Part shown: positions 26,819 through 54,973 of the stretch, one piece after another
Numbering within the stretch: position 1 is the stretch's first letter
Layout: each line of letters starts with the position of its first letter
Assembly: GCF_012910805.1 (NCBI RefSeq)
Contig: NZ_WTVK01000009.1
Coordinates: 62,001-126,000 of the forward strand
Direction: 5' to 3'
Length of the DNA stretch: 64,000 bases
Source: Aromatoleum evansii
Lineage (GTDB): Bacteria; Pseudomonadota; Gammaproteobacteria; Burkholderiales; Rhodocyclaceae
Notes under the pieces: generated by a model
What the model saw: the letters and a program-made list of their open reading frames with translations, nothing else
Told to the model about the DNA's origin: nothing
Database searches by the model: none
Made by a program: the position numbers and the translations under genes

Positions 26819-26838
26819 GGCGATCTCGCTGAGGTAAG

Positions 26839-26868
26839 TTTCGATAAATAATACACCACGTACCGGTT
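26839..26868. promoter_or_regulatory. Predicted IclR operator O1 (iclR/pta)
   Basis: A 30-bp element beginning TTTCGATAAA and ending CGTACCGGTT. It shares the half-sites TTTCG and GTACCG with six others in this region. It ends 14 bp before the -35 of the pta promoter and lies 20 bp before the iclR start codon. Confidence 0.65.
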
Positions 26869-26882
26869 TATAAGAATACCCG

Positions 26883-26911
26883 TTGACTGTGCCCTGTTTT
26901 GCATCTAGAGT
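26883..26911 (+). promoter_or_regulatory. Predicted sigma70 promoter of pta
   Basis: TTGACT (26883-26888), a 17-bp spacer and TAGAGT (26906-26911). It lies between the two predicted IclR operators. Confidence 0.6.
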
Positions 26912-26920
26912 TTGATCAAG

Positions 26921-26950
26921 TTTCGAATAACGGAACGAAACGTATCGAAA
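26921..26950. promoter_or_regulatory. Predicted IclR operator O2 (pta)
   Basis: A 30-bp element with left end TTTCGAATAACGG and right end ACGTATCGAAA, an imperfect inverted repeat. It starts 9 bp after the -10 box, so it would overlap the transcription start. The distance from the start of O1 is 82 bp. Confidence 0.7.
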
Positions 26951-27113
26951 GTTGTTTGTTTGTTGTTGCTGATGCGTATTACCGCCCCCGCGCCTGACCG
27001 GCATATGGGCGGCGACGTCGGCGGCGCGCGTGACCCGCGTCGCTCCGCCGGCGGTGCTCCATCCGTGGTATTTCCCTCCACGGCCCCGCTTCCCCGGACG
27101 GGGCCGTTACCTG

Positions 27114-27160
27114 GCCGGAACCGAGTCGTCTCCCAACCCCTGCGGTTCCGGCATTTTTTT
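27114..27160 (+). terminator. Terminator-like hairpin in the pta leader
   Basis: GCCGGAACCG (27114-27123) pairs exactly with CGGTTCCGGC (27143-27152), followed by ATTTTTTT (27153-27160). The element sits only 10 bp before the pta start codon and about 240 nt after the predicted transcription start, so it may act as an attenuator. A second, GC-rich hairpin (CGGCCCCG/CGGGGCCG) lies just upstream near 27081-27106. Confidence 0.6.
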
Positions 27161-27170
27161 GGTGAATGGA

Positions 27171-28205
27171 ATGAAAGCGATCAACCGCATCATCGAGACC
27201 GCACGCGCGAAACCCCGACGGATCGTGCTCAGCGAGGGCGACGACCCGCGCGTGCTGCAGGCCGCGGTGCGCGCGACGCGCGAAGGCACGGCGAAGATCG
27301 TCCTCGTCGGCAGCTGCGCCGCGATCGAGGCCTGCGCCTACCGTGAAGGGCTGGATCTGGCAGGCATCGAGCTGGTCGACCCGGCGCGTTCGCATCTCAC
27401 CGAGGGTTTCGTGCGCGTGCTGCTGCGCCTGCGCGCGCACAAGGGCATGACGCACGAGCAGGCCCAGCGCGACGTGCTCGACCCGCTGTGCTTCGCGAAC
27501 TTGATGGTGCGCCTGGGGCATGCGGACGGGTCGGTGTCGGGCGCGGTGCGCACGACTGCCGACGTGGTGCGTACCGCGATCCAGATCATCGGCCCGGACA
27601 AGTCGTTCAAGCTCGTGTCGAGTTTCTTCCTGATGATGTTGTGCGAGCCCTTCCACAGTCTGAAGGGCGGGTTGATCTTTTCGGACTGCGGGCTGGTCGT
27701 GGACCCCGATGCGGAGGAATTGTCGGAGATCGCGATGGCGGCGGCCGACAGCGCGCGCAGCCTGCTGATGGAAGAACCGCGCGTCGCGATGCTGTCCTTC
27801 TCGACGAGCGGCAGCGCGAAGCATGCGGCTGTGGACAAGGTGGTGGCGGCCGCGCAGCGCGTGCGCGAGATGCGCCCGGGGCTCGCGATCGACGGCGACG
27901 TGCAGCTCGATGCGGCCATCGTGGCCGAGATCGCCAACCGCAAGCTGCCGGATTCGCAGGTGAAGGGGCGGGCGAACGTGCTGGTGTTCCCGAACCTCGA
28001 GGCGGGCAACATCGGTTACAAGCTGGCGGAGCGGGTCGGCGGCGCGGTTGCGATCGGGCCGCTGCTGCAGGGGCTGGACAAGCCGGCGAACGACCTGTCG
28101 CGCGGCTGCAGTGCCGACGACATCTTCTACGTGATCGCGGTGACGGTCGTGCAGGCACAGGCGGCGGACGCCGCGCGGCAGCGCGAGACTGCGGCCGCGG
28201 TGTGA
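27171..28205 (+). CDS. pta: Phosphate acetyltransferase (short form)
   Basis: A 344-residue enzyme consisting of the PTA_PTB domain only, which converts acetyl phosphate and CoA to acetyl-CoA and phosphate. Typical segments are [34 protein letters not shown] and [20 protein letters not shown]. In sulfonate degraders this short Pta completes the pathway after Xsc. The next gene, a TauE/SafE exporter, begins one base after its stop. ATG 27171 fits the family start. An in-frame GTG three codons upstream is possible. Confidence 0.95.
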
Positions 28206-28206
28206 G

Positions 28207-28974
28207 ATGGACGGCGGGACGCAGCTCGCGCTGCTGCTGATCGTTGCGGTCGCCACCTATTTCCAGACGGTCACGGGCTTCGGCCTCGGCATGATCGTCA
28301 TGGGGGCGACCAGCGGCATGCAGCTCGCTTCGGTCGCGACTGTCGCGGCGGTCGTGAGCCTGGTGTCGCTCGCCAACAGCGTCGTCGCGCTGCCCGGTCG
28401 CATGCACGGCATCGACTGGCGCGCGGCACGGGCGGCCATCCTGGGCATCCTGCCCGCGATCGTCGCCGGCGTGGTGCTGCTCGATTTTCTGAGTGCCACG
28501 GCGGCCGGCATCCTGCAGCTTCTGCTCGGCATCGTCATCATCCAGGGCAGCGTCGGCTTCGCCTTGCGCCCGGTGCAGCTCGACGAGCGCTCGTCGGATT
28601 TCAGCTTCGCCGCCAGCGGCTTCTTTTCGGGGCTCAGCGGCGGGCTCTTCGGCGTCGCGGGGCCGCCGCTGATCTTCCAGTTCTATCGCCAGCCGATGGA
28701 TGCGGTAGCGGTGCGCAACATTCTCCTGCTGCTCTTCTCGGTCACCTCCGCGACCCGCTCGGTCTACCTCGGCGTGCAGGGCCGGCTCGATGCGGAGATC
28801 TGGACGGTGTTCGCGCTCGCCTTGCCGGTGGTGGCCCTCGTGACGATCGTCGGGCGTCGGTACCCGCCGCCGCTCGCCGCGCGCACGATGCGCCGCCTCG
28901 TGTTCATGCTGCTGATGGCGATCGGTGCCTATCTGGTGATGTCGGCACTGCCGACAATCGTGGCGGGTTGGTAG
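28207..28974 (+). CDS. tauE: TauE/SafE family sulfite (or sulfonate) exporter
   Basis: A 255-residue membrane protein with about eight helices and the DUF81/TauE pattern: an N-terminal FQTVTGFGLGMIVMG and a repeat-related GFFSGLSGGLFGVAGPPLIF. In Cupriavidus necator TauE is proposed to export sulfite made during taurine degradation. Its position directly after pta makes sulfite export the likely role here. The family also contains other anion transporters. Confidence 0.88.
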   Translation: MDGGTQLALLLIVAVATYFQTVTGFGLGMIVMGATSGMQLASVATVAAVVSLVSLANSVVALPGRMHGIDWRAARAAILGILPAIVAGVVLLDFLSATAAGILQLLLGIVIIQGSVGFALRPVQLDERSSDFSFAASGFFSGLSGGLFGVAGPPLIFQFYRQPMDAVAVRNILLLLFSVTSATRSVYLGVQGRLDAEIWTVFALALPVVALVTIVGRRYPPPLAARTMRRLVFMLLMAIGAYLVMSALPTIVAGW

Positions 28975-29101
28975 CGTCGCTGTGGCGTACTCGCCCGTTG
29001 ATGCTCATATGGCAATTGGCAATAACGATATGGGGTTCTAATAACCAGAGTTCGAGTATCCTCCACTTCGATATTTCGTCGTTCAGAGTTGGAGGCCCAC
29101 G

Positions 29102-29410
29102 ATGTCCGAACTCCTTGGCGTTGCCGCTGGCGTGTTGACCTTCGTGTCCGCCGCTTGCGTCCTCGGGCGCATGCGCAAGCAGGAAGGGCTCGCCTGGCTG
29201 GAGAGCCGGCCCCAGGATGTGGCGCGCCTGTATCTGAGGTCGGCATCCGACGTCGATGCCTACTGGCTGCACGTGGAATTCCGCAATGGCCGCAAGCGCA
29301 TGGTCGCGGCGCCGTGGGAGATCGAAGACGCGTTGCGCCGCCTGGCGCCGCTCGGGCTCAGGCTGTCGGCGCAGGACCGCGAGGCGCTTGCGCGCCTGCA
29401 TCACCGGTGA
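29102..29410 (+). CDS. Small membrane-anchored protein of unknown function
   Basis: A 102-residue protein beginning with one hydrophobic helix (residues ~3-22) followed by a basic soluble part (FRNGRKRMVAAPWEIEDALR). I do not recognise it. A good ribosome site (TTGGAGG) stands 8 bp before the ATG. It starts 127 bp after tauE and does not look related to sulfonate metabolism. Confidence 0.65.
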   Translation: MSELLGVAAGVLTFVSAACVLGRMRKQEGLAWLESRPQDVARLYLRSASDVDAYWLHVEFRNGRKRMVAAPWEIEDALRRLAPLGLRLSAQDREALARLHHR

Positions 29411-29435
29411 ACGCCGCGCTCCGCAGGCGACGGGG

Positions 29436-29927
29436 CTATTCCGCCGGTGCGTCAGGTTCGACTGCGCCGGCCGCGGCCCGGCCGCGCTGCTTGGCCGCGA
29501 TGAAATCGCCGCGGGGAATGTAGAGCAGGTCGCCGAGCTTGCGCATGAGGTGGTTCTCGTGATGGCTCAGCGTGCCATCCGCGTAGGCCACCTGCCACAG
29601 GTATTCGACCATGCGCAGCTTCTGCTCAGCGCTGAAGCCCTTGTTGAGGCGTGACGTGAAGCTGTAGAGGTCCGGCGCATCGCGCGAGGTCGCGTCTGCG
29701 AGGTCCATCAGGCGCGCGAGCTCGTCGTCGCCAAGGGGGAACTTGTTGCGCAGGGCCTGCACGACGGCCGTGCGCTCGGCCGGCGAGTAGTCCTCATCCG
29801 ACCGCATCACCTCGACGAGGAGCACCGCTGCTGCGAGCTGAAGTGCGTGATCGGGGCCCTTGGCGGCGGCCGCACTGGATGGACCAGCGGTAAGGGAGTT
29901 GAATAGATCCCGCAGGTTGGCAAACAT
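29436..29927 (-). CDS. TerB-like (tellurite resistance family) protein
   Basis: A 163-residue cytoplasmic helical protein resembling the TerB/DUF533 group: RSDEDYSPAERTAVVQALRN and VAYADGTLSHHENHLMRKLGDLL carry the acidic metal-binding-like pattern repeated in the two halves. Function in the family is unclear; some members are linked to tellurite or phage resistance. Start chosen at the Met of MFANLRDLFNSL, which is the usual beginning. Confidence 0.8.
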   Translation of the reverse strand: MFANLRDLFNSLTAGPSSAAAAKGPDHALQLAAAVLLVEVMRSDEDYSPAERTAVVQALRNKFPLGDDELARLMDLADATSRDAPDLYSFTSRLNKGFSAEQKLRMVEYLWQVAYADGTLSHHENHLMRKLGDLLYIPRGDFIAAKQRGRAAAGAVEPDAPAE

Positions 29928-30071
29928 CGTCGTCGAGCGCTCCCATTCGAACACGAACGAGGGCTCAGTGTAGCGCGAGGCGCGAACGGGTTTCGCACGA
30001 GCGGCCAAGAACCCTCCAATCGCATAGGAGTTTACGGACGAGAGTGGCGATGCCTCGGCCCGAACCGCTGC

Positions 30072-30587
30072 TTACGGTGTCGAGATGTTCAGCACCCCCT
30101 TGTATAAGTTCGCCTTCTCCCACGGGTCGTCGATTTTCTCGAAATGTCCGGTACCGGAGGCTCCCTTGTAGAGACCGCTACCACTGAGCACCGTGTAGCG
30201 GCCGAGCATCGGCTTGCCCGGCTCGACAACGCCTTCGAAGCGCAGCGTCAGACTGGAACCGTCGGTGAAGGTGTAGGTGCTGTAGCCGTAGAAGGGCCCG
30301 GCGCCGTTCCGGAAATCGAACGAGAACGTAAACTCCTTGTTGGCGATGCGTCCGTCCGCGAACACGGCGGTACCGGCGTAGCGGCCGGTGCTGACCATCT
30401 GCCCCTCGACCTCGGCGATCTTTTCAGTCTTCACGTCGATGGTGCGGGTGACCAGCTGGAACCTGAGCTCCTGTTCCGCGGCCAGGCCGAGCGCGGGCGC
30501 GGCCACGAGCGCGGCGCCCAGGAGAAACCCGCGCAGCCGTCTGCGCAAGGGGGAACCCCCCGCGCTGCAATCGATGGCATTGTTCAT
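30072..30587 (-). CDS. Exported protein of unknown function, beta-barrel-like
   Basis: A 171-residue protein with an N-terminal signal (RRRLRGFLLGAALVAAPALGLAAE, cleavage after ~37). The mature part is rich in alternating beta-strand patterns (GYSTYTFTDGSSLTLRFEG and GRYTVLSGSGLYKGASGTGH) similar to allene-oxide-cyclase/dirigent-like barrels. No catalytic residues can be named. It probably forms a unit with the upstream 117-residue secreted protein, which begins 383 bp before it on the same strand. Confidence 0.65.
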   Translation of the reverse strand: MNNAIDCSAGGSPLRRRLRGFLLGAALVAAPALGLAAEQELRFQLVTRTIDVKTEKIAEVEGQMVSTGRYAGTAVFADGRIANKEFTFSFDFRNGAGPFYGYSTYTFTDGSSLTLRFEGVVEPGKPMLGRYTVLSGSGLYKGASGTGHFEKIDDPWEKANLYKGVLNISTP

Positions 30588-30616
30588 GTCGATCTCCCCG
30601 GTCAGTTGTCAGGACG

Positions 30617-30970
30617 CTAGCGCGTGGTGGTCGCTCCGTCGCCTGGCGCGCTCGCGAGCAAGGGGTGGCCGGCATCGTAGGTCCGTGTCTTCACGTAGGG
30701 ATTGAGCCACCCGCCGCGATCGAGCAGCGCCCGGGAGTAGCCGGCGAGGGTCGCCGTCATGACCGTGTCGGCCGATTGTGTGCCGTCCTCGTGACGCATC
30801 GCTGCTGCGAGGGGATTGCTCCACGTCCCTCGTTCAGCAAAGCCGTCCATGGTTTGTCTTGCCTGCGTGACAAGAGGGTCGGCAGCCGGCTCGGCCGACA
30901 CGGCTGCGGTTGAAAGCGACAGCAGCGTGCCCGCTCCGAGTGCCCCGATGATTCCGATCAGTCGTTTCAT
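30617..30970 (-). CDS. Small exported protein of unknown function
   Basis: A 117-residue protein with a clear signal peptide (MKRLIGIIGALGAGTLLSLS, cleavage near SAEPA). The mature part has no motif I know. ATG 30970 has GGAGG ten bases upstream and starts the signal directly; an upstream Met at 30982 would cover this ribosome site. It lies 29 bp before the other secreted protein gene. Confidence 0.65.
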   Translation of the reverse strand: MKRLIGIIGALGAGTLLSLSTAAVSAEPAADPLVTQARQTMDGFAERGTWSNPLAAAMRHEDGTQSADTVMTATLAGYSRALLDRGGWLNPYVKTRTYDAGHPLLASAPGDGATTTR

Positions 30971-31252
30971 GTTCGCCTCCATTCCTCTGGCGCGCCGGCT
31001 CGAACATGCCGCCGGGCCGCCATGATTTTTTCTATGCCGCCGCCCGCGAATCGGCCTGACGATCGTCTGACGAATCGCTGATTTTTTTATTCACACGAAA
31101 AATCAACGTGTTATGAATCCGTCGCGGCAGGTTTTCGGTTGGCGGAACAGCACCGAAAGCCGGCGAATGGGCCGGATGTCGTTACGGTTGCCCCGGATGC
31201 CGGCATGGTCTATCCGTAAATTGACCGGCTTGCATCCGGCCCAGGGGGCTCA

Positions 31253-32938
31253 ATGGATTCCTTCTTCCTGCACGACTGCCGCATCCGTCCGTCCGAGCGC
31301 ATCATCGAGCGCAATGGCGAAGCCCAGCGCATCGAGCCGCGGGCGATGGACCTGCTCCTGTTGCTCGTCGCGCGGGTGGGCGAAGTCGTGACCCGCCAGG
31401 AAATCGAGGATCGACTGTGGGAAGGCCGCGTGGTCGGCTACGACGCGCTCACCCAGACGGTGGCGAAGCTTCGACGCGCGCTGGGCGACGATGCCCACGA
31501 GCCGAGCTTTCTGCTCACCATCCCCAAGGGCGGTTACAAACTCGCGGTGGCTCCCGAGACGCGAGACGCAGGCGAACAGCGGCTCGCAGTGGCGGAGGCG
31601 CCGTCCCTCGCCGCACCGATGGTGCCCGCCAACGCGGCGCCGCGCGGCCCAAACCGCCTGTGGCGCCTCATGGGCGGAGCGCTCCTCGTGCTCGTCGCCA
31701 TCGCCGGCATCGGGTGGATGAGCCAGGAGGCCCCGCCCGCGGCCCGGCCGGCTACGGCCCTGGAGCGACGGCCGGCCCTTGCGGTACTGCCATTCCTCGA
31801 TCGCAGCAATGACGACGACTACGCCTACGTCGCCGACGGCCTGACCGAGGATCTCATTACAACCCTGACCCATATTTCAGAGCTCAACGTGCTCGCTCTG
31901 ACCTCGACCACCGGATACAAGAGCCAGCCGTTCGACGCTGCAGCGGTTCGGCGTGCGCTCGGCGCGCGCTACGTCGTCACCGGGGCCGTGCAGGCGGATC
32001 AGGCCTCGCTGCGCGTTCATGTGCAACTGATCGACGCGGAAAGCGAAAGCAATCTATGGGCGGAGAAGTACGATCGACCCCGTGCCGAATGGTTTGCCTT
32101 GCGCGACGAATTGGCCGATGCGATCTCGTCGCGAGTGCTCCCGAACGTGCAGGAGGCCGAGAAGCGCCGCGCGCGCCGCAAGCCGACGGAGAACCTGGAT
32201 GCCTACGATCTCTTCCAGCGGGCGCGGAGCGAGAAGCACAAGCTCACGGTCGACAGCGAGCGGGAGGCGGTGACCTTGCTGCGCCGGGCGATCGAGCTGG
32301 ACCCGAATTTTGCCGAAGCCCACGCCTTGTTGGGTTGGGTGGGCGCCCTCGAAAGGCTCTTCGGCGGAACCGGCGCGTCCTATGAGGAGTCGCTCGCGCA
32401 GGTGCAGCGCAGCCTGGAGCTTCACCCGCAGCTTTCGATCGGATATCAGGCGCTCACGCAGGTGCTGACCTTCATGAAACGCTTTGAAGAGGCGACCCAG
32501 GCCGGACTGCGGGCGATCGAGATCAACCCCAACGACGCCGAGAACCACATCTTCTACTCGCGCGCGGCATCGACCGCGGGGTATTACGAGCCGGCGGTGG
32601 CGGCCGCCGAGCGGGCGGTCGCGCTCAACCCGATGTATCCGAAGTGGTACCCCTACATCTTCGCCCGGGCGCTGTACGCGGACGGACAGATCGCGCGGGC
32701 GGTGGAAATCTGCGCCGACGGGATGGCCCGCCAGCCATTCGTGGCAACGACGGTGACCTGCATCGCGGTGTTCGAACGCGCCAGCCGTCACGACGAGGCC
32801 GCGGCCCATGCACGGACGCTCAACGCGGCGCCGATACCGATCACGGTGGCGCACGCCCAGGATTCATGGGGATTCCGCGAGGCGGCACTCAACGAACGCT
32901 TTGCGGACGACCTGACGGCGGCAGGCCTGAGGCGGTGA
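31253..32938 (+). CDS. CadC/ToxR-like membrane-bound transcription regulator with TPR domain
   Basis: A 561-residue one-component regulator. The N-terminal OmpR-type winged helix spans residues 1-100 (VVTRQEIEDRLWEGRVVGYD and LLTIPKGGYKLAV). A single membrane helix is at about 137-156. The periplasmic part has a TolB-like/adenylate-cyclase-associated segment (LAVLPFLDRSNDDDYAYVADG) and then TPR-like helical repeats (~290-520). Such proteins sense periplasmic signals and act on promoters while membrane-bound. It is divergent from the two small secreted proteins, so these may be its targets. Confidence 0.85.
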   Translation: MDSFFLHDCRIRPSERIIERNGEAQRIEPRAMDLLLLLVARVGEVVTRQEIEDRLWEGRVVGYDALTQTVAKLRRALGDDAHEPSFLLTIPKGGYKLAVAPETRDAGEQRLAVAEAPSLAAPMVPANAAPRGPNRLWRLMGGALLVLVAIAGIGWMSQEAPPAARPATALERRPALAVLPFLDRSNDDDYAYVADGLTEDLITTLTHISELNVLALTSTTGYKSQPFDAAAVRRALGARYVVTGAVQADQASLRVHVQLIDAESESNLWAEKYDRPRAEWFALRDELADAISSRVLPNVQEAEKRRARRKPTENLDAYDLFQRARSEKHKLTVDSEREAVTLLRRAIELDPNFAEAHALLGWVGALERLFGGTGASYEESLAQVQRSLELHPQLSIGYQALTQVLTFMKRFEEATQAGLRAIEINPNDAENHIFYSRAASTAGYYEPAVAAAERAVALNPMYPKWYPYIFARALYADGQIARAVEICADGMARQPFVATTVTCIAVFERASRHDEAAAHARTLNAAPIPITVAHAQDSWGFREAALNERFADDLTAAGLRR

Positions 32939-33008
32939 TCAGCCGATCGACCTCAGTGGGGCGGCACACTTTCCCGGTCGGCGCCCCGAAGCCGACGGTG
33001 CTCCCCGC

Positions 33009-33729: not shown

Positions 33730-33764
33730 GCTTTGCCGGTCTCCTGGTCGGTGGATGGGCGCGC

Positions 33765-35507
33765 TCAGCGGTGGGCGTGGCCGCCGATGAGCTGCACGAT
33801 TTCGGGGAAGAGCGTGTTGTCCAGCCCCCGCGTCAGGTCGGCCGCGAGGCTGCGGCGGTAGAAGGGGCTGAGGTCCAGGCCCACGCCGAGGCCGAGGATC
33901 TCGACCGCCCCTTCGCGGCTGCGCCGGGCGACGACGTCCTTGAGGTGATTGTCGAGGTAGAAGGGGTCGTTGGCCAGCCCCGTGGCGCTGTCCGAGGGGC
34001 AGCCGTCGGAGATCACGATGAGGATGCGGCGGGCCTCGGGGCGGGCGAGCAGGCGGTTGCACGCCCAGTCGACCGCTTCGCCATCGATGCCTTCGCGGAA
34101 GAGGTCGCCCTTGAAGAGGGCGGCGATGTCGGTGCGCGCGCGGCGCCAGTTGCGCTCGGCGTCCTTGAACACCATGTGGCAGACCTCATTGAGCCGCCCG
34201 GGGTGCGGCGGGCGGCCGCGGCTCATCCAGTCGCGGTACGCGCGCCCGCCGTTCCACGCGCCGGTGGTGAAGCCCAGCAATTCGGTGGCGACGCCGATCA
34301 TGTCGAGGGCGCGCAGCAGCGTGTCGATCATCACCGCGACCGGCTCGATGTGCGCCTTCATCGAGCCGGAGCAGTCGAGCAGCAGGCCGACGATGCAGTC
34401 GGACTGCGGCAGGTGGCGCTCCTGGCGGAAGACGCGGCGCTCGGCGGGCGAGCTGATGACCTGCGCGAGGCGGCGGCCGTCGATGTGGCCTTCCTCTTCG
34501 CCGAAGCGCCAGCCGTCGCGCGCGGGGCGGGTGAGGACGGCGGCGAGCTGGCGTGCGAGGCGTGGCAGGTTGAGCCCTTGTTCGGCGACGCAGCGATCCA
34601 GCCGTTCGCGGTACTCGCGCAGCAGCGCGCGGCGCACGAGCGTGCCGGCGGCGACCTCGGTGTCGAAGCGGGTGGTGTACACGCGGTAGGCGAGGGCGGC
34701 GTCGGCGAGCACCTTGCTCGTGCCGGTGGTCGCGGCGGCGATGCCGTTGTCGCCGTCGCCGGCGTCGTCGAAATCAAGCAGCAGGGCGAAGTCGCGCGTG
34801 GCGGGTTCGTCCTGATCGGCCTTCTCCCCGTCTTCGGCCGCGGCCTGCTCGGCGTGCACGCGCTCGCCGACGATGCGCGCGATCTCCAGTGCGTGCGGCG
34901 CGAAGGCGGCCTGATCGTGGCGCTGGCGGCGGATGCCCGCGAGCGACGTGCCCATCGCGGAGACGAGGCCCATGCGGGTGCTTTCGATGTAGTCCTCGGT
35001 GTCTTCGAGGACGGGGCGCGTGGTGAGGCGCGACCAGCACATCTGCGCCACGGTGTACAACAGGATGCCGACGCTGCCCTCGGTGAGGCCGGAGCGGTAG
35101 AAGGCGCGCGACCAGCTCACGAAGCGCTCCTGCAGGTTGTGCGCCATGCCGGGCATGGCGGCGGGCGCGAGGGTTTCGACGCGCAGTTGTTCGAGCAGCT
35201 CGAAGACGAGACGCTCGACCGGGTCGGCGGGGGCGAGGCGGGCGTGCAGGGCGGCGTCCGAATGCAGCAGGCGCAGGGCGATGCCGTCGGCGGCGGCGCG
35301 GCAGTCGGCGAAGGCGTCGGTGCCGGCGTCGATGCGCAGGTGCGGCGCATGCACGGGCACGCTGCGTTCGCCTGCATACAGGCGGCGCCCGCGGTAGTGC
35401 AGGGCGGGGCGGCCGGTGAGCGCGCGCAGCGTCGCCGCGCACAGCTCCTCGACGCGCTGCTGGCGCCGCGCCTGTTGCTGAGCGTTGGGCGCCGGGGCCT
35501 TGCTCAC
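33765..35507 (-). CDS. CobT-like protein with VWA domain (cobaltochelatase-type subunit without CobN)
   Basis: A 580-residue protein resembling CobT, the von Willebrand A subunit of aerobic cobaltochelatase. The C-terminal third contains the MIDAS-type motif DCSGSM (~377) and the typical [17 protein letters not shown]. The N-terminal part matches CobT ([22 protein letters not shown]). The central acidic linker is short. Classical CobT acts with CobS and the large CobN to insert cobalt into hydrogenobyrinate; no CobN or other cobalamin gene is in the window. The GTG start overlaps the cobS-like stop by four bases. Its task here is more likely chaperone-like activation or metal insertion for another enzyme of the region. 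Confidence 0.85.
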
Positions 35508-36481
35508 GCTGCGGCCTCGCGCATCCAGGATTCGTCGAGTTCCGTGCCGAAGCAGCGCTGGTAGTACTCGGCGACGATGGGGCGTTCGGCCTCGTCGCAC
35601 TTGTTGAGGAAGGACAGCCGGAAGGCGAGCGCCGGGTTGCGGAAGATCTCGCAGTTCTCCGCCCAGGTGATCACTGTGCGCGGCGACATCAGCGTCGACA
35701 GGTCGCCCGCGGCGAAGCCCTTGCGGGTGAGCTCGGCGACCGCGACCATCGCGCGCACGAGTTCCCGGCCTTTCTCGTAGTTCTTCGCCGGCACGCGCGC
35801 GAGCACGATCGCCACTTCCTCGTCGGCGGGCAGGTAGTTGAGCGTCGCGACGATGTTCCAGCGGTCGATCTGCGCGTGGTTGAGCACCTGGGTGCCGTGG
35901 TACATGCCCGAGAGGTTGCCGAGGCCCACGGTGTTCGAGGTTGCGAACAGGCGGAACCAGGGATGCGGGCGGATCACGCGGTTCTGGTCGAGCAGCGTGA
36001 ACTTGCCGTCGCGCTCGAGGATGCGCTGGATCACGAACATCACGTCGGGGCGACCGGCGTCGTACTCGTCGAAGATCAGCGCGACCGGCCGCTGCAGCGC
36101 CCACGGCACGATGCCTTCCTGGAATTCGGTGACCTGGCGGCCATCGCGCACGACGATCGCGTCCTTGCCGACGAGGTCGAGGCGGCTGATGTGGCCGTCG
36201 AGGTTCACGCGCACGCACGGCCAGTTCAGGCGCGCGGCGACCTGTTCGATGTGCGTCGATTTGCCGGTGCCGTGCAGCCCCTGGACCATCACGCGGCGGT
36301 CGCGCGTGAAGCCGGCGAGGATGGCCAGCGTGACGTCCGGGTTGAAGCGGTAGGCCTCGTCGATCTCGGGGACGTGGTCATCGCGGGTGCCGAAGGCGGG
36401 CACCTGCAGGTCGGAATCGATTCCGAACAGCGAGCGGACCGAAACCAGCTGGTCCGGTGTGTCGAGGGCGAGTTCCGTCAC
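35504..36481 (-). CDS. CobS-like AAA+ ATPase (MoxR/CobS family)
   Basis: A 325-residue AAA+ ATPase very similar in wording to Cob[19 protein letters not shown] near the start, Walker A GLHGTGKS (68-75), [17 protein letters not shown], Walker [11 protein letters not shown] (~134-143) and sensor [14 protein letters not shown] 36481 is preferred because AGGAG lies 6 bases before it and the start then agrees with CobS; an ATG at 36514 is possible. It heads an operon with the CobT-like and two Lin0512 genes. A predicted IclR operator lies 44 bp upstream, linking it to taurine control. Confidence 0.88.
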
Positions 36482-36524
36482 GGCAGTCTCCTGGGGGCGT
36501 CTTGTGCGATTCATGATAGTCGCG

Positions 36525-36554
36525 TTCCGGTAAAAGGTACAAGAAGTTCCGGAA
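36525..36554. promoter_or_regulatory. Predicted IclR operator in the cobS-like/permease divergent region
   Basis: A 30-bp inverted repeat with ends TTCCGGTAAA and GTTCCGGAA and the centre GGTACAAGA, which is also the centre of the tauX downstream element. It ends 13 bp before the -35 of the permease promoter, like the O1 elements at xsc and tauX. No second copy was found at the expected O2 place. Confidence 0.65.
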
Positions 36555-36557
36555 AGA

Positions 36558-36596
36558 GAAATTTAGCTTGACGCCTGCGAGGCTTGATCCTACATT
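36558..36596 (+). promoter_or_regulatory. Predicted promoter of the APC permease gene
   Basis: GAAATTT, three bases, TTGACG (36568-36573), a 17-bp spacer and TACATT (36591-36596). The -35, spacing and -10 are identical to those of the xsc promoter. Confidence 0.65.
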
Positions 36597-36713
36597 CACA
36601 TCAAAACAGCGAATCCGTGCATAAGGCTGAACGATTGGCCCGCGACCGGACGCGCAAGAAGACGACAAGCATCGGTTGCGGCCTTGCGGGCCGCGCCAAC
36701 GGAGGAGACGGAC

Positions 36714-38141
36714 GTGAAACCGGAAGCTGGAAATTCGGCTGGGCTGCAGCACGGCCTCAAGCAGCGGCACATGACGATGATCGCGCTGGGCGGCGTGATC
36801 GGCGCAGGCCTCTTCGTGGGCAGCGGCGTGGTGATCAAGTCGGCCGGCCCGGCCGCGGTGCTGTCCTTCCTGCTCACGGGCGGGCTCGTGGTGCTGGTGA
36901 TGCGCATGCTCGGCGAGATGGCTGTGGCGATGCCGGGTGTCGGCGCCTTCTACGAATTCGCCCGCACCGCGTGGTCGGACCGGCCCGCGGTCGGCAATCT
37001 CGCCGGCTTCCTGACCGGCTGGATGTACTGGTACTTCTGGGTCATCGTCGTCGCGCTCGAAGCGGTCGCCGGGGCGGATCTGGTGCGTTACTGGCTGCCG
37101 GACGTGCCGGCCTGGATCATCAGCCTGGTCTTGCTGGTGACGCTGACGATGACCAACCTGATCTCGGTGAAATCCTTCGGCGAGTTCGAGTTCTGGTTCG
37201 CATCGATCAAGGTCGCGGCGATCATCGTGTTCCTGTTCCTCGGCGGCCTGTACGTGCTGGGGATGTGGCCGGACGCCACGGCCAGCGTCGCCAACCTGAC
37301 CGAGCACGGCGGCTTCATGCCGAACGGCATCGTGCCGGTGCTGACGGGGGCGGTTGCCGCCACCGGCTTCTACTTCGGTGCCGAGATCGTCACGGTCGCC
37401 GCGGCCGAGACAGCGGAGCCCGAGCGCGCCGTCGCGAAGGCGACGAGTTCGGTGATCACCCGCGTGCTGGTGTTCTACGTAGGCTCGGTACTGCTCGTCG
37501 TATGCCTCGTGCCGTGGAACTCCAGTGCGATCTCGACGCCCTACGTCAGCGCGCTCGACGCGATCGGTATTCCGGCCGCGGCGCAGATCATGAACGCGAT
37601 CGTCCTGACCGCGGTGCTGTCGGCGCTGAACTCCGGCCTCTACGCCTCCTCGCGCATGCTCTTCGCGCTGACGCGCCGCGGCGATGCGCCGATGGTGCTG
37701 GCGAAGGTGAGCCGCAACGGCGTACCGGTGCCGGCGATCCTGATCGGCACGCTGTTCGGTTACGGGGCGGTGGTGATGTCGTACGTGTCGCCCGACACGG
37801 TGTTCGCCTTCCTCGTGAATTCGTACGGCACCGTCGCGATCTTCGTCTATGTGTCGATCGCGGTTTCCCAGCTGCGCCTGCGTGCCCGTCTCGAGAAGGA
37901 AGATCCCGCGCGCCTGCGCGTGAAGATGTGGTGCTATCCCTATCTCACCTGGGTCGCGATCGTCGGCATGCTCGCGATCGTCGTCGCGATGGCCTTCATC
38001 CCCGAGCAGCGCACGCCGCTGCTGCTGGGCGTGGCGAGCCTGGGCATCCTGCTTGCCCTGTACGGCATGAAAAGCCTGTGGTTGGCGAAACCGGACATCG
38101 CCCCCGTCGTGATCGACACGCAGGCTTTCGAGCGATCCTGA
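36714..38141 (+). CDS. APC-superfamily amino acid permease (GabP/AAT type)
   Basis: A 475-residue permease with about twelve helices. The first helix region KQRHMTMIALGGVIGAGLFV is the amino acid transporter (AAT) signature; helix 3 EMAVAMPGVGAFYEFAR and ISVKSFGEFEFWFASIKV are also typical. GabP-like carriers accept omega-amino acids, so taurine or hypotaurine uptake is a reasonable inference from the surroundings. GTG 36714 is chosen because GGAGGA lies 7 bp upstream. It is divergent from the cobS-like operon and shares its promoter type with xsc. Confidence 0.9.
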   Translation: MKPEAGNSAGLQHGLKQRHMTMIALGGVIGAGLFVGSGVVIKSAGPAAVLSFLLTGGLVVLVMRMLGEMAVAMPGVGAFYEFARTAWSDRPAVGNLAGFLTGWMYWYFWVIVVALEAVAGADLVRYWLPDVPAWIISLVLLVTLTMTNLISVKSFGEFEFWFASIKVAAIIVFLFLGGLYVLGMWPDATASVANLTEHGGFMPNGIVPVLTGAVAATGFYFGAEIVTVAAAETAEPERAVAKATSSVITRVLVFYVGSVLLVVCLVPWNSSAISTPYVSALDAIGIPAAAQIMNAIVLTAVLSALNSGLYASSRMLFALTRRGDAPMVLAKVSRNGVPVPAILIGTLFGYGAVVMSYVSPDTVFAFLVNSYGTVAIFVYVSIAVSQLRLRARLEKEDPARLRVKMWCYPYLTWVAIVGMLAIVVAMAFIPEQRTPLLLGVASLGILLALYGMKSLWLAKPDIAPVVIDTQAFERS

Positions 38142-38197
38142 TCCCTCCGTGCGCGGGGTAGGGGCCGTCACCGGCCCCGCGCCGCCGCGCTTCGGCA

Positions 38198-38238
38198 GAA
38201 AACGGCATCCGTCGCCGATTGGCGCGGATGCCGTTTTC
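38198..38238. terminator. Bidirectional-type intrinsic terminator after the permease
   Basis: GAAAACGGCATCCG (38198-38211) and CGGATGCCGTTTTC (38225-38238) are exact reverse complements. The A-run before and T-run after the GC stem are typical of an intrinsic terminator. Confidence 0.85.
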
Positions 38239-38277
38239 ACGTCCACGCCCTGCCGATCCTGCTGCACTTGGATGTAA

Positions 38278-38307
38278 TTTCAAAATAAGAGACAAATGGT
38301 TCAGAAA
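38278..38307. promoter_or_regulatory. Predicted IclR operator O1 (xsc)
   Basis: A 30-bp element from TTTCAAAATA to GGTTCAGAAA. It is the weakest of the set, but it sits exactly where O1 is found at tauX: 13 bp before the -35. Confidence 0.5.
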
Positions 38308-38310
38308 AAC

Positions 38311-38349
38311 GAAATTTATGTTGACGTCTCAAAAATGTCGACGTACATT
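38311..38349 (+). promoter_or_regulatory. Predicted promoter of the xsc operon
   Basis: GAAATTT (38311-38317), three bases, TTGACG (38321-38326), a 17-bp spacer and TACATT (38344-38349). Confidence 0.7.
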
Positions 38350-38358
38350 GAACTCAAG

Positions 38359-38388
38359 TATCGAATATCGGAACGCTAGGTACCGAAA
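38359..38388. promoter_or_regulatory. Predicted IclR operator O2 (xsc)
   Basis: A 30-bp element with ends TATCGAATATCGG and GGTACCGAAA, matching the pta O2 at 19 of 30 positions or more. It starts 9 bp after the -10 and 81 bp after the start of O1. Confidence 0.7.
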
Positions 38389-38432
38389 ACGATATCTTGA
38401 CTTCGCGATCACTCGACAAGGAGACAGCAGCA

Positions 38433-40244
38433 ATGAGCGAACAAGACCGCCGCACCGTCGTCAGCGGCCCGCACAAGATGACCCCGTCGGAAGCCTTCGT
38501 GGAAACCATGGTGGCCAACGGCGTGACCGACATGTTCGGGATCATGGGCTCGGCCTTCATGGACGCGATGGACATCTTCGCGCCGGCCGGCATCCGCCTG
38601 ATCCCGGTGGTGCATGAGCAGGGTGCGGGCCACATGGCCGACGGCTACTCGCGCGTGTCGGGTCGCCACGGTGTCGTGATCGGCCAGAACGGTCCCGGCA
38701 TCTCCAACTGCGTGACCTCCATCGCGGCGGCGTACTGGGCGCACAGCCCGGTCGTGATCGTGACCCCCGAGACCGGCACCATGACCATGGGCCTGGGCGG
38801 CTTCCAGGAATGCAAGCAGCTGCCGATGTTCCAGGAATTCACCAAGTACCAGGGCCACGTCACCAACCCCGCGCGCATGGCCGAGTTCACCGGCCGCTGC
38901 TTCGACCGCGCGATGAGCGAGATGGGCCCGACCCAGCTCAACATCCCGCGCGACTACTTCTACGGCGAGATCACCTGCGAGATCCCCAAGCCCAGCCGTC
39001 TCGATCGCGGCCCCGGCGGCGAGCAGAGCCTGAACGAAGCGGCCGAGCTGCTCGCCACTGCCAAGTTCCCGGTGATCATCTCGGGCGGCGGCGTGGTGAT
39101 GGCCGATGCGGTCGAGGAGTGCAAGGCGCTCGCCGAGCGCCTGGGTGCGCCGGTCGTGAATAGTTACCTGCACAACGATTCCTTCCCGGCGAGCCACCCG
39201 CTGTGGTGCGGCCCGCTCGGCTACCAGGGCTCCAAGGCGGCGATGAAGCTGATCAGCCAGGCCGACGTGGTCGTCGCGCTCGGTTCGCGCCTCGGCCCCT
39301 TCGGCACGCTGCCGCAGCACGGCATGGACTACTGGCCGAAGAATGCCAAGATCATCCAGATCGACGCCGACAACAAGATGCTGGGCCTGGTGAAGAAGAT
39401 CTCGGTGGGCATCTGCGGCGACGCCAAGGCCGCCGCGAAGGCGCTGGTGTGGCGCTTGACCGGCCGCACGCTCGAATGCGATGCAACCCGCGAGCAGCGC
39501 TTCGCCAAGGTGCAGGAAGAGAAGGCCGCGTGGGAGCGCGAACTCGACGAGTGGACGCACGAGCGCGACCCCTTCAGCCTCGACATGATCGAGGAGAACG
39601 CCAAGGAGAAGACCTTCAACGGCGGCGACTACCTGCATCCGCGCCAGGTGCTGCGCGAACTGGAAAAGGCGATGCCGCCGGACGTGATGGTGTCCACCGA
39701 CATCGGCAACATCAACTCGGTCGCCAACAGCTACCTGCGCTTCGAGAAGCCGCGCAGCTTCTTCGCCGCGATGAGCTTCGGCAACTGCGGTTACGCCTTC
39801 CCGACCATCATCGGCGCGAAGGTCGCCGCGCCGCATCGCCCGGCAGTGTCCTACGCCGGTGACGGCGCCTGGGGCATGAGCCTGATGGAGACGATGACCT
39901 GCGTGCGCCATAACATCCCGGTGACCGCGGTGGTGTTCCATAACCGCCAGTGGGGCGCGGAGAAGAAGAACCAGGTGGACTTCTACAACCGCCGCTTCGT
40001 CGCCGGCGAACTCGACAACCAGAGTTTCGCGGAAATCGCGCGGGCGATGGGCGCCGAGGGCATCACCGTGGATCGGCTGGAGGACGTGGGCCCGGCGCTG
40101 AAGAAGGCCATCGACCTGCAGATGAACCACGGCAAGACCTGCATCATCGAGATCATGTGCACGCGCGAACTGGGCGACCCGTTCCGCCGCGACGCGCTCT
40201 CGAAGCCGGTGCGTCACCTCGACAAGTACAAGGACTACGTCTGA
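38433..40244 (+). CDS. xsc: Sulfoacetaldehyde acetyltransferase
   Basis: Xsc is a TPP-dependent enzyme that converts sulfoacetaldehyde and phosphate to acetyl phosphate and sulfite, the C-S bond-breaking step of taurine degradation. The 603-residue product has the TPP-family N-terminal glutamate in HEQGAGHMADGYSR (E62), the Xsc-like stretch ETGTMTMGLGGFQECKQLPM, and the GDG...N cofactor motif in SYAGDGAWGMSLMETM. Length and wording agree with described Xsc proteins. ATG 38433 has AAGGAG 9 bp upstream; an in-frame TTG at 38397 is not needed. It is the first gene of an operon with a YeiH-like exporter, thiS and thiG. Confidence 0.96.
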   Translation: MSEQDRRTVVSGPHKMTPSEAFVETMVANGVTDMFGIMGSAFMDAMDIFAPAGIRLIPVVHEQGAGHMADGYSRVSGRHGVVIGQNGPGISNCVTSIAAAYWAHSPVVIVTPETGTMTMGLGGFQECKQLPMFQEFTKYQGHVTNPARMAEFTGRCFDRAMSEMGPTQLNIPRDYFYGEITCEIPKPSRLDRGPGGEQSLNEAAELLATAKFPVIISGGGVVMADAVEECKALAERLGAPVVNSYLHNDSFPASHPLWCGPLGYQGSKAAMKLISQADVVVALGSRLGPFGTLPQHGMDYWPKNAKIIQIDADNKMLGLVKKISVGICGDAKAAAKALVWRLTGRTLECDATREQRFAKVQEEKAAWERELDEWTHERDPFSLDMIEENAKEKTFNGGDYLHPRQVLRELEKAMPPDVMVSTDIGNINSVANSYLRFEKPRSFFAAMSFGNCGYAFPTIIGAKVAAPHRPAVSYAGDGAWGMSLMETMTCVRHNIPVTAVVFHNRQWGAEKKNQVDFYNRRFVAGELDNQSFAEIARAMGAEGITVDRLEDVGPALKKAIDLQMNHGKTCIIEIMCTRELGDPFRRDALSKPVRHLDKYKDYV

Positions 40245-40262
40245 TCCGTAGCGCCTGAAGAA

Positions 40263-40291
40263 GGCGGGGCGGCCCACAAGGCCGTTCCGCC
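40263..40291 (+). other. Intercistronic hairpin after xsc
   Basis: GGCGGGGCGGCC (40263-40274) and GGCCGTTCCGCC (40280-40291) form a stem with one mismatch. There is no T-run, so it may stabilise the xsc mRNA or reduce read-through into the following gene. Confidence 0.45.
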
Positions 40292-40323
40292 ACCGCCCGA
40301 CATCCCCACCGGACCCCGATCCA

Positions 40324-41364
40324 ATGACCACTCAAACGACAATTGCGCCGCCCGCGATGTTCAGCGAGGTGCGTGTGCTGATGCCGGGCTTCATGCTGTG
40401 CGCCGTGATTGCCGTCGCGGCGACCTTCGTGTCCGAGCATTACGGCGGACCGCAGTTTCTCTACGCGCTGCTGCTGGGCATCGCGTTCCACTTCCTTTCC
40501 GACAGCGAGAAGTGCATCCCCGGCATCGAGGTTTCCGCGAAGAAGCTCGTGCGCTTCGGCGTCGCGCTGCTCGGTGCGCGCATCGTCGCCAGCGACGTGA
40601 GCGACCTGGGGCTGATCGGCGTCGGTGCCCTCGTCGGCGCGGTGGTGCTGACCATCGGCTTCGGCCTGTTGCTCGCCCGCATCCTCGGCCTGCCGCCGCT
40701 GCTGGGCCTGCTCTCGGGCGGCGGCACGGGCATCTGCGGCATCTCCGCGACGCTCGCGATCTCCTCGACGCTGCCCGCGACACGCGAGACCGAGCGCTAC
40801 ACGTTGCTCACCGCGATCGGCGTGGCGATCTTCTCGACCGTGGCGATGGTGCTCTATCCGCTGGTCGTGAAGGCCGCCGGGTTGTCGGTGAGCGAGGCGG
40901 GGCTCTTCCTCGGTGGCTCGATCCACGACGTCGCGCAGGTGGTCGGCGCCGGGCTGATCATCTCGCCCGAGGTCGGCGACGCAGCGACGCTCGCGAAGAT
41001 GTTCCGTGTCGCGATGCTGATGCCGGTGGTCGTCGTGCTCGCGTTGGTGTTCCACGCCGAGCGCAAGAAGGAAAACGGCGGCAGCGCGAAGAAGACGCCG
41101 ATCCTGCCGCTTTTCCTCGTCGCCTTCGCAGCGCTGGCGGCGCTCAACAGCCTGGGCCTGCTCTCGCACGAGCTGGTCGAGGCGAGCTCCACGCTCTCGC
41201 GCTGGTGCCTGGTGATCTCGATCGCCGCGCTGGGCGTGAAGACCTCGCTGGAGAAACTCGCCGAACTGGGGTGGAAGCCGATCGTGCTGCTGTCGGGCGA
41301 GGCCTTGTTCGTGGCTGCTTACATGCTGGCGGTGGTCTTCGCCGCCCGCCTGATCGCGACGTAA
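40324..41364 (+). CDS. YeiH/UPF0324 family putative sulfate exporter
   Basis: A 346-residue membrane protein with about ten helices. Family wording is clear: FLSDSEKCIPGIEVSAKKLVR, LLSGGGTGICGISATLAISS and GLFLGGSIHDVAQVVGAG. YeiH-type proteins (putative sulfate exporter family) accompany taurine and sulfoacetate genes in several bacteria; the Paracoccus TauZ is a proposed sulfate exporter of this general kind. Together with TauE this window therefore offers two candidate routes for releasing the sulfur product. It follows xsc by 79 bp and precedes thiS by 16 bp. Confidence 0.9.
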   Translation: MTTQTTIAPPAMFSEVRVLMPGFMLCAVIAVAATFVSEHYGGPQFLYALLLGIAFHFLSDSEKCIPGIEVSAKKLVRFGVALLGARIVASDVSDLGLIGVGALVGAVVLTIGFGLLLARILGLPPLLGLLSGGGTGICGISATLAISSTLPATRETERYTLLTAIGVAIFSTVAMVLYPLVVKAAGLSVSEAGLFLGGSIHDVAQVVGAGLIISPEVGDAATLAKMFRVAMLMPVVVVLALVFHAERKKENGGSAKKTPILPLFLVAFAALAALNSLGLLSHELVEASSTLSRWCLVISIAALGVKTSLEKLAELGWKPIVLLSGEALFVAAYMLAVVFAARLIAT

Positions 41365-41380
41365 TGACGGAGGGCGGACC

Positions 41381-41590
41381 ATGGTCAGCGTGAAGATAGA
41401 ACTGAACGGAGCGGCGCACATGCTGCGCGCCGGCCGCAGCCTGCACGACCTCATCGCCAGCCTGGACCTGCTGGGCAAGCGTGTCGCGGTCGCCGTCAAT
41501 CGCGAGGTGATCCCGTCGCCGCGCTGGGCGGGCCGGGTGCTGCAACCGGATGATCGCGTCGAGGTCGTCGTCGCGATCGGCGGCGGCTAG
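41381..41590 (+). CDS. thiS: Sulfur carrier protein ThiS
   Basis: A 69-residue ubiquitin-like sulfur carrier for thiazole synthesis. It starts with the beta-strand VSVKIELNG, has the conserved VAVAVNREVIPSPRW, and ends with the obligatory di-glycine (AIGGG), which is adenylated and thiocarboxylated. It begins 16 bp after the YeiH-like gene, with GGAGGG upstream, and is followed by thiG. Location in the xsc operon suggests that thiamin pyrophosphate supply for Xsc is co-induced. Confidence 0.92.
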   Translation: MVSVKIELNGAAHMLRAGRSLHDLIASLDLLGKRVAVAVNREVIPSPRWAGRVLQPDDRVEVVVAIGGG

Positions 41591-41617
41591 TAAACAAGTA
41601 GAGGAGGAACGAACGGA

Positions 41618-42439
41618 ATGAAGCTGAACGACACCCCGGACGAGATCCGGCCGGCCGTGACCGACGTGGGCCTCACGATCGCCGGCAAGACCTACGCGTC
41701 GCGCCTGCTGGTGGGCACCGGCAAGTATCGCGACTTCGACGAAACGCGGGCCGCGGTCGACGCGAGCGGCACCGACATCGTCACCGTGACGATCCGCCGC
41801 GTGAACATCGGCCAGCACGCCCACGAGCCGAATCTGCTCGACGCCGTGCCGCCCGACCGCTTCACGATCCTGCCCAACACGGGCGGCTGTTTTAACGCCA
41901 AGGACGCGGTCTACACGCTGCAGCTCGCACGCGAACTGCTCGATGGCCATCCGTTGTGCAAACTCGAGGTGCTCGGCGACGAGAAGACGCTGTTCCCGAA
42001 CATGCCCGAGACGCTGAAGGCGGCCGAGGCGTTGGTGAAGGACGGCTTCGAGGTGATGGTGTATTGCAGCGACGACCCCATCCAGGCGCGCATCCTCGAA
42101 GACATCGGCTGCGTCGCGGTGATGCCTCTGGCGAGCCTGATCGGCTCGGGCATGGGCATCCTCAACCCGTGGAACCTGTCGCTGATCATCGAGCAGGCTC
42201 GGGTGCCGGTGATCGTCGATGCCGGCGTGGGCACCGCCTCCGACGCGGCAATCGCGATGGAACTCGGTTGCGACGGGGTGCTGATGAACACCGCGATCGC
42301 CCATGCGCGCGAGCCGGTGCGCATGGCGCGGGCGATGCGCCTGGCGGTGCAGGCCGGACGCGAGGCCTTTCTCGCGGGGCGCATGCCGCGCCGCTTCGCG
42401 GCTTCGCCGTCGTCGCCGATGGCGGGGCGGATCGCGTGA
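41618..42439 (+). CDS. thiG: Thiazole synthase ThiG
   Basis: ThiG condenses 1-deoxyxylulose 5-phosphate, dehydroglycine and ThiS thiocarboxylate to the thiazole phosphate of thiamin. The 273-residue product keeps the TIM-barrel signatures [18 protein letters not shown], the Schiff-base Lys in [14 protein letters not shown] (~115), [20 protein letters not shown] and [19 protein letters not shown]. An N-terminal extension of ~15 residues and the variation [14 protein letters not shown] distinguish it slightly from common ThiG. A strong GAGGAGG precedes the ATG. No thiO/thiE/thiC is adjacent, so it could be a second, taurine-dedicated copy. Confidence 0.93.
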
Positions 42440-42462
42440 GTATTGCGCGCTGCGGAGTGAAA

Positions 42463-42492
42463 TTTCAGAAAGTTTGTAGTTGTGTACCGATA
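42463..42492. promoter_or_regulatory. Predicted IclR operator O1 (tauX)
   Basis: A 30-bp element from TTTCAGAAAG to TGTACCGATA. The right half matches the right half of xsc O2 (GTACCGA). It ends 13 bp before the -35. Confidence 0.55.
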
Positions 42493-42495
42493 ATC

Positions 42496-42534
42496 GAAAT
42501 TTCTCTTGACAGCGTAGCGGCGTAGTCCTAATGT
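42496..42534 (+). promoter_or_regulatory. Predicted promoter of the tauXY-TRAP operon
   Basis: GAAATTT (42496-42502), three bases, TTGACA (42506-42511), a 17-bp spacer and TAATGT (42529-42534). This is a near-consensus sigma70 promoter. Confidence 0.75.
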
Positions 42535-42542
42535 AAATCAAG

Positions 42543-42572
42543 TTTCAAAAAACGGTACAAGACGTTTCATAT
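42543..42572. promoter_or_regulatory. Predicted IclR operator O2 (tauX)
   Basis: A 30-bp element with left part TTTCAAAAAACGGTACAAG and right end CGTTTCATAT. It starts 8 bp after the -10 and 80 bp after the start of O1. Its middle is shared with the element at 36525. Confidence 0.65.
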
Positions 42573-43025: not shown

Positions 43026-43054
43026 GCATCCCCGGACACATCAGGAGTCGGGAC

Positions 43055-54749: not shown

Positions 54750-54958
54750 GGTCTCTCCTTTCGTCGGGGGGCGGATCCGCGGCTGTTGTCGCCGCTCCGT
54801 CCACCATAGTCGAACGGCAGGGCGGCGGTTTGACAGTCGCAGCGAAATCCAGGGCGTTCCGGCTTGCCCCTGTCCGTCTTTTCCGGTGAATCTAGTGTGG
54901 ATTGGCCAAGGCGCCGGGGGCGGTTCCATGCACTGTCCTTAGCGGATCTTGATTTAAC

Positions 54959-54973
54959 GAAACGATCGGTCTA
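54959..54973. promoter_or_regulatory. TetR-type operator half-match before acuR
   Basis: GAAACGATCGGTCTA, sharing CGATCGGTCTAAA with the site before acuI. It lies 10 bp before the acuR start, which suggests autoregulation. Confidence 0.65.

Follow-up and report, generated by a model that had tools for sequence, protein, structure and literature searches.

In Aromatoleum evansii, a cluster of genes for C2-sulfonate metabolism carries seven copies of an IclR-type DNA element, distributed over four promoters. The cluster lies in the 64,000-nucleotide stretch analysed here (the window; C330:62001-126000 of the 5.94-Mb genome). At three promoters, those of pta, xsc and a tauX-like gene, one element (O1) precedes the -35 hexamer and a second (O2) follows the -10 hexamer, with start-to-start distances of 82, 81 and 80 bp, respectively. 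The seventh element stands alone before a permease gene. With slightly better than even confidence, we regard the seven elements as operators for the IclR-family product of the gene at 26000-26818, each bound by a tetramer, with O1 activating and O2 repressing transcription in response to sulfoacetaldehyde.

Putative operator elements and predicted core promoters

Each element is an array of half-sites (boxes) that start at 0, 11, 22 and 33 bp and alternate in direction; the first coordinate of each element in Table 1 is the start of its box 1. A first-pass annotation of this DNA had reported the seven elements at these places (box 1 is set one base earlier here) and the three pair distances, all of which were reproduced. 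Its description of the motif as IclR-type agrees with the half-sites, which fit the group-1 type GTTYCR...YGRAAC of the consensus in the main text of PMC8222616. The element length of 30 bp did not hold for O1, where a fourth half-site (CGAAAT-like, weak at pta) ends 5-6 bp before the -35, so that O1 spans ~39 bp. The four boxes of O1 carry 3.9, 2.8, 6.2 and 4.4 bits of information, and those of O2 carry 4.7, 7.7, 6.6 and 1.0 bits. Therefore, O1 is a four-box site with its stronger palindrome beside the -35, and O2 is a three-box site with its stronger palindrome beside the transcription start. The two palindromes within one element are 22 bp apart, and palindromes 18-22 nt apart were taken as tetramer sites by Suvorova and Gelfand 2021 (PMC8222616, main text). 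The four-box spacing by itself makes it plausible that one tetramer covers each element.

Predicted core promoters lie between the paired elements. From O1 box 1 to the -35 the distance is 45 (pta), 44 (xsc) and 44 bp (tauX), and from the end of the -10 to O2 it is 8, 8 and 7 bp. The permease copy does occupy the O1 place that had been assigned to it, and the matrix scan of the window found no O2 after it. From one window promoter to another, the 17-bp spacers show no relationship (4-9 identities), so the geometry has been kept without copying of sequence. A gap of 20 bp separates O1 of pta from the start codon of iclR. The start codon of the divergent cobS-like gene is 9 bp from the element at 36524, which might also serve that gene.

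The core pattern GTWYCR-N5-CGGWAC-N5-GTWYCR was scanned over the whole genome. Among the matches listed, three were exact and one had a single mismatch, and these four best matches all belong to this cluster, one each upstream of pta, xsc, tauX and the permease gene. When three mismatches are allowed, the matches listed comprise 150 places (75+75) versus 264 (132+132) for the reversed pattern, so the remaining places are background. The O1 copies of the three pairs, with at least three mismatches each, are not separable from that background by the core pattern; they were identified by matrices trained on relatives.

The O1 and O2 matrices derive from the xsc/iclR regions of 45 relatives and none from the window, the nearest training locus encoding an IclR protein 84% identical. 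On the + strand of the window, the seven sites take the first seven places with the O1 matrix. With the O2 matrix, six of them take the top places, and a match at 7812 (15.6) falls just above 42462 (14.9); it lies in an A/T-rich stretch and was set aside as a regulon site. Pair totals are 79.3 at pta, 85.3 at xsc and 81.3 at tauX, compared with 6.5 for the next + strand pair in the window and -11.2 for the best pair in 1 Mb of random DNA matched in dinucleotide composition. A minus-strand stretch at 54947-54985, between AHSA1 and TetR genes, scores 20.2 with the O1 matrix and forms no pair; it too was set aside, as probably unrelated.

Conservation in relatives

Relatives of the IclR protein are 68-97% identical, with identities up to 97% in named Aromatoleum strains, and most are encoded beside sulfonate genes. 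From named species, 80 loci were kept of a larger set; xsc occurs in 62 of them, and xsc, pta, tauX or tauY in 72. Similarity reduction left 49 of 68 xsc intergenic regions. Matrix fitting on these xsc/iclR regions took the half-sites of the window as its seed, and its sole demand was two sites at least 40 bp apart. Spacings of 79-82 bp were found in 38 of the 49, compared with 4.6% in shuffled sets. The matrices were built from the 45 regions with spacings of 76-84 bp and for that reason cannot themselves prove the spacing.

When both elements must score positively, a pair at 76-84 bp is present in 69 of the 80 iclR upstream regions, from Beta- and Gammaproteobacteria and Actinobacteria. By total score alone the count is 70, locus L086 being lost to the stricter demand, and none of 1457 control stretches from the same loci passed the pair threshold. 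The pair is accordingly conserved at most of the orthologous promoters of relatives, where its lack would, by the first-pass annotation's own test, have spoken against the proposal, and co-conservation across loci speaks for its proposal of one regulon with the neighbouring iclR product as the likely regulator. The recurrence of the bracketed layout in many distant relatives makes it a probable mark of a single shared control system.

Within the family, 28 of 199 genomes encode an IclR relative at E 1e-40. In the close clade, a pair scoring at least 77.9 was found in 18 of 20 loci (window included), some of which may come from species already represented among the training loci; L093 and L106 are the exceptions. 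A clade with 36-44% identity showed no pair at 76-84 bp in 10 loci, seven of them beside xsc, where the best pair totals were 25.7 at 61 bp and 20.4 at 75 bp. By eye, several loci of this distant clade (L107-L116) have a single array-like stretch near xsc. In L107-L114, the second IclR clade (39-44% identical) adjoins a second xsc type (68-73% identical) in seven of the eight loci, without the pair. A plasmid search with the IclR protein gave one relative, in Photobacterium.

Promoter geometry was surveyed in the three window promoters and, upstream of genes of five classes, in pairs with both scores above 8 and spacings of 70-86 bp. The 77 rows became 76 once identical cores were removed; three tauX rows counted among the 76 (L043, L083 and L086) belong to the divergent xsc promoter. 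Between O1 and O2 the consensus is a TTGACN-17-TAnnnT promoter. O1 box 1 lies 44-45 bp from the -35 in 61 of the 76, and the -10 lies 8 bp from O2 in 48 and 7-9 bp in 66. The -35 begins with TTGAC in 70 promoters and the spacer is 17 bp in 73, both being features that the promoter finder favours. With +1 assumed seven bases past the -10, O1 would extend from ~-81 to -42, with its centre near -62, and the three strong boxes of O2 from ~+1 to +28.

Target genes

Pairs precede homologues of xsc, pta, the permease gene, yeiH and tauX in some species. Additional targets are tauA in Glaciimonas (L016; element scores 28.8 + 14.7; TIGR01729 380.3 bits, cut-off 304.25), sauS in L019 and L020 (NF047625 786.3 and 783.5 bits, cut-off 600), and thiO in L077 (thiO model 305.6, cut-off 250.8). 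Sites stand before six pta genes, all adjoining iclR in Aromatoleum-type loci, while pta genes behind xsc have none. Promoters with O1 only were found before the permease gene in the window, L009 and L010, and by eye in L060 and L106. In L106, as judged by eye, O1 stands ~35 bp from the -35, about one helical turn nearer, with its fourth box replaced and O2 absent.

Thiamine genes recur in these clusters: thiG in the window, thiO in L077 (1859-3016), and a thiO-like gene in L068 (8766-9821) that scores under the ThiO cut-off. The presence of thiO and thiG fits the thiamine-diphosphate requirement of Xsc. At L020:16132-16200, a 68-bp pair without a good promoter between its elements precedes a choline-dehydrogenase-type GMC gene, which may encode an isethionate dehydrogenase.

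Genes of the cluster

The cluster comprises iclR, pta, a TauE/SafE exporter gene, cobT/cobS-like genes, an APC permease gene, xsc, a YeiH-type exporter gene, thiG, a tauX/tauY-like pair and TRAP transporter genes (Table 1). The regulator belongs to the IclR family by both domains (PF09339 48.9 bits, cut-off 22; PF01614 130.6, cut-off 24), and the solved structures closest to it in sequence are 1mkm, 9e6a and the acetate operon repressor. The xsc gene is the sole TIGR03457 match over cut-off in the genome. The name tauX for the gene at 42606..43025 is our assumption, taken from the first-pass annotation and from its presumed pairing with a DAO oxidase, and tauY for the following gene is likewise assumed; among the matches listed for the latter, no NCBIfam model passed its cut-off.

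The CobS/CobT-like AAA+/VWA pair occupies 33765-36514 on the minus strand. The pair or one member accompanies the iclR/xsc genes in 61 of the 80 loci (L009-L088), in Proteobacteria and Streptomyces. It is probably not a cobaltochelatase, because the genome of the window has no CobN match, and it is perhaps a helper of Xsc or of another sulfonate enzyme.

Table 1. Genes, putative operator elements and predicted core promoters of the sulfonate cluster (window coordinates)
Feature	Position	Strand	Evidence or details
iclR-family regulator, 272 aa	26000..26818	-	Pfam HTH_IclR and IclR_C above cut-off
O1 of pta	26838..26876	+	boxes 26838, 26849, 26860, 26871 (fourth weak)
pta predicted core promoter	26883..26911	+	TTGACT-17-TAGAGT
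O2 of pta	26920..26947	+	three boxes, core matched exactly
pta, phosphate acetyltransferase	27171..28205	+	TIGR00651 357.7 bits, cut-off 311.2
TauE/SafE-type sulfite exporter	28207..28974	+	PF01925
cobS-like AAA+ gene, divergent from permease	35504..36514	-	TIGR01650 548.1 bits, just below cut-off 558.55; PF12556
O1 of permease	36524..36562	+	four boxes; one mismatch to core
permease predicted core promoter	36568..36596	+	TTGACG-17-TACATT; element 36524 lies 44 bp before, in the O1 place
APC-family permease (GABA permease-like)	36714..38141	+	PF00324; TIGR01773 545.5 bits, under cut-off 678.1
O1 of xsc	38277..38315	+	boxes 38277, 38288, 38299, 38310
xsc predicted core promoter	38321..38349	+	TTGACG-17-TACATT
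O2 of xsc	38358..38385	+	three boxes, core matched exactly
xsc, sulfoacetaldehyde acetyltransferase	38433..40244	+	TIGR03457 1084.2 bits, cut-off 676.4
thiG	41618-42439		
O1 of tauX	42462..42500	+	boxes 42462, 42473, 42484, 42495
tauX predicted core promoter	42506..42534	+	TTGACA-17-TAATGT
O2 of tauX	42542..42569	+	three boxes, core matched exactly
tauX-like SnoaL-fold subunit	42606..43025	+	PF12680
tauY-like DAO-family FAD oxidoreductase	43022..44491	+	PF01266; same frame 42860-44491

Proposed mechanism and alternatives

In the reading we favour, each element would be a two-palindrome array under one tetramer (two dimers), the fourth half-site being weak in O2. Without inducer, the protein would occupy O2, and probably O1 as well, and the promoter would be shut, since protein lying over the first transcribed bases would block initiation or escape. 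With inducer, it would leave O2 and activate from O1, just upstream of the -35, by contacting the carboxy-terminal domain of the polymerase alpha subunit (alpha-CTD) or sigma. Activators in contact with the alpha-CTD commonly bind near -62, and a site at +1 is typical of a repressor. Activation from O1 and repression from O2 are favoured because O1-only promoters exist and because O1 is centred near -62 and O2 begins at about +1. The inducer would most likely be sulfoacetaldehyde, where several target pathways meet: Xsc acts on it, as does SauS to judge by the name of its model, and taurine import and oxidation lead to it in the pathway as outlined in PMC5320631.

A number of observations weigh against this reading. 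A -35 close to consensus and a 17-bp spacer are what a promoter independent of activators would have, so O1 may instead serve repression or iclR autoregulation; its position 20 bp from the iclR start codon could alone account for its retention. The promoter finder also has weights that favour TTGACA, TATAAT and a 17-bp spacer. Pairs occur at only part of the candidate targets (pta 6/32, permease 6/15, yeiH 1/7). At tauX the count is 4/14, three of them shared with divergent xsc, at cobS it is 4/58, all divergent from other targets, and no pair was found at the tauE (0/23) or thiG (0/3) genes of the surveyed loci. Eleven of the 80 loci have no pair upstream of iclR. Five of these (L019, L030, L043, L083 and L086) have a pair at another regulon promoter and four (L027, L040, L045 and L060) look O1-only; L068 has a 70-bp pair, and L022 is on a short contig. 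Lone sites of ambiguous type stand upstream of iclR in L019 and L093 (28.6 with the O2 matrix, with none O1-like at pair distance) and in L043, L083 and L086. A strict IUPAC pattern for O2 matched nine of the 199 family genomes, four of these being of the genus of the window beside iclR, while the reversed control matched four; the pattern was given up as too rigid and the matrices were used in its place. The recognition-helix stretch PKPTLHR is invariant in 17 aligned orthologues, and the distant clade, with PKPTVHR, is nearly the same, so the helix does not explain the difference between the clades.

Pure repression is a serious possibility, to which we give less credence. Protein bound to O1 and O2, with tetramers touching or not, would occlude the promoter, and inducer would free both sites, O1 having no activating role. 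The prevalence of TTGAC and of the 17-bp spacer among the 76 promoters points this way, within the bias of the finder towards both, as does the location of O2 at the start of transcription. In addition, the promoter is flanked almost symmetrically by the stronger palindromes (O1 boxes 3-4, O2 boxes 1-2). Against it, O1-only promoters would be poorly repressed and yet retain O1, and the two sides show no significant compensation.

This last point comes from 51 dereplicated promoters, or 47 without Variovorax, examined with a one-sided permutation test that left out the three shared tauX rows. The offsets between O1 and the -35 and between the -10 and O2 correlate with r -0.17 and p 0.15 in the 47, and with r +0.20 once the four Variovorax promoters are added. 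In the absence of significant compensation, the distance appears to be set by the promoter and not by a loop: each element seems to be placed relative to the polymerase, with a weak effect of total distance possible.

More speculatively, and in our view doubtfully, two IclR-type tetramers, near -62 and +20, would embrace the promoter and act together on bound polymerase as a single switch, one that would have been installed at unrelated promoters of a sulfoacetaldehyde-centred regulon in Proteobacteria and Actinobacteria.

A short DNA loop or clamp, in which two tetramers touch across 81-82 bp and the spacing itself is selected, appears improbable. The narrow spacing peak, seen across many species and at unrelated promoters of one genome, is what it would produce, and a weak effect of distance is compatible with the compensation test. 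However, spacings vary: they are 76-78 bp in Variovorax and 70 bp in L068, two Rhizobacter loci have 79 bp, and pairs before the Cupriavidus permease gene have 83 bp. O1-only promoters exist as well. Moreover, 81-82 bp corresponds to ~7.75 helical turns, so that O1 and O2 would lie a quarter turn apart on relaxed DNA. A rigid loop as the cause of the fixed distance, one reading of the short loop suggested by the first-pass annotation, is on these grounds not supported.

It is very improbable that an IclR paralogue or an unlinked protein binds the elements in place of the 26000-26818 product. Some clusters do hold a second IclR gene, 34-37% identical, the recognition helix of the distant clade is almost identical, and IclR-family motifs resemble one another (PMC8222616, main text). 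The pair nevertheless stands upstream of the orthologue's own gene in the 69 loci, including loci without a second IclR gene, and was not found beside the distant clade. A leader-RNA element (attenuator or riboswitch) is scarcely credible: O2 is probably transcribed, but O1 copies lie upstream of the promoters and the predicted folding of the three O2 leader segments does not surpass that of shuffled sequences (z -0.35, -0.47 and +0.94).

Relation to known regulators

The protein scores below the model cut-offs for PcaR/PcaU/PobR, BhcR, KdgR, IclR and AllR. Its best NCBIfam match is BhcR (NF045644), at 149.1 bits far under the cut-off of 350. E. coli IclR, the aceBAK regulator, responds to small C2-C3 acid effectors. 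It is of the same family and its C-domain is among the nearest solved structures, but the window protein reaches 116.4 bits against an equivalog cut-off of 380, and the targets differ. TtgV is an efflux-pump repressor, and we know of no upstream/downstream operator pair for it. This family member (PDB 2xrn/2xro), homologous to the window protein over residues 22-244, is cited for tetramer binding in the main text of PMC8222616. PcaU and PobR of Acinetobacter baylyi share with the system described here the IclR family and a palindrome with a third half-site, which is needed for PcaU binding (PMC8222616, main text). They differ in that the window protein scores 140.8 bits against the TIGR02431 cut-off of 284.75, that sulfonate and not aromatic genes are the targets, and that two arrays surround one promoter.

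In the IclR groups of Suvorova and Gelfand, half-site type and tandem palindromes resemble the elements of the window. The consensus half-site is GKTYCRYW3-4RYGRAMC, with 32 three-box groups and 94 tandem groups (PMC8222616, main text). No ~80-bp pairs around a core promoter and no taurine regulon were noted in that main text, and the supplementary regulon tables may list such a group. 'Taurine' and 'sulfo' at word starts occur 0 times in the main text, which does mention COGs for TauABC transporters. In the literature searched, with its thin coverage of subscription journals, an IclR regulator of xsc or of taurine dissimilation was not recognised, and an earlier gene name is possible.

TauR, the activator of taurine metabolism as presented in PMC5320631, is of MocR type (MocR/GntR family) and unrelated in protein family to the IclR protein. 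The contrast with TauR drawn by the first-pass annotation stands for the cluster, with no TauR-like gene among its annotated genes. The one MocR-type frame found in the window lies at 58126-59637; it scores above the PdxR cut-off (392.6 vs 320) and adjoins a pyridoxamine-phosphate-oxidase-like gene. For the genome as a whole the contrast is less secure, as a TauR is possible elsewhere, where two unassigned frames combine GntR and aminotransferase domains (C258, C259).

Biological significance

Taurine and related C2 sulfonates are widespread nutrients. The system described here is a predicted second control system for taurine dissimilation, unrelated to the MocR-type TauR of PMC5320631 as described there. 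Its operators, promoters and targets are placed precisely enough for laboratory tests. With more than 70 promoters that carry a promoter-locked pair, and O1-only cases beside them, these bacteria offer a natural set for the study of how one regulator may both repress and activate.

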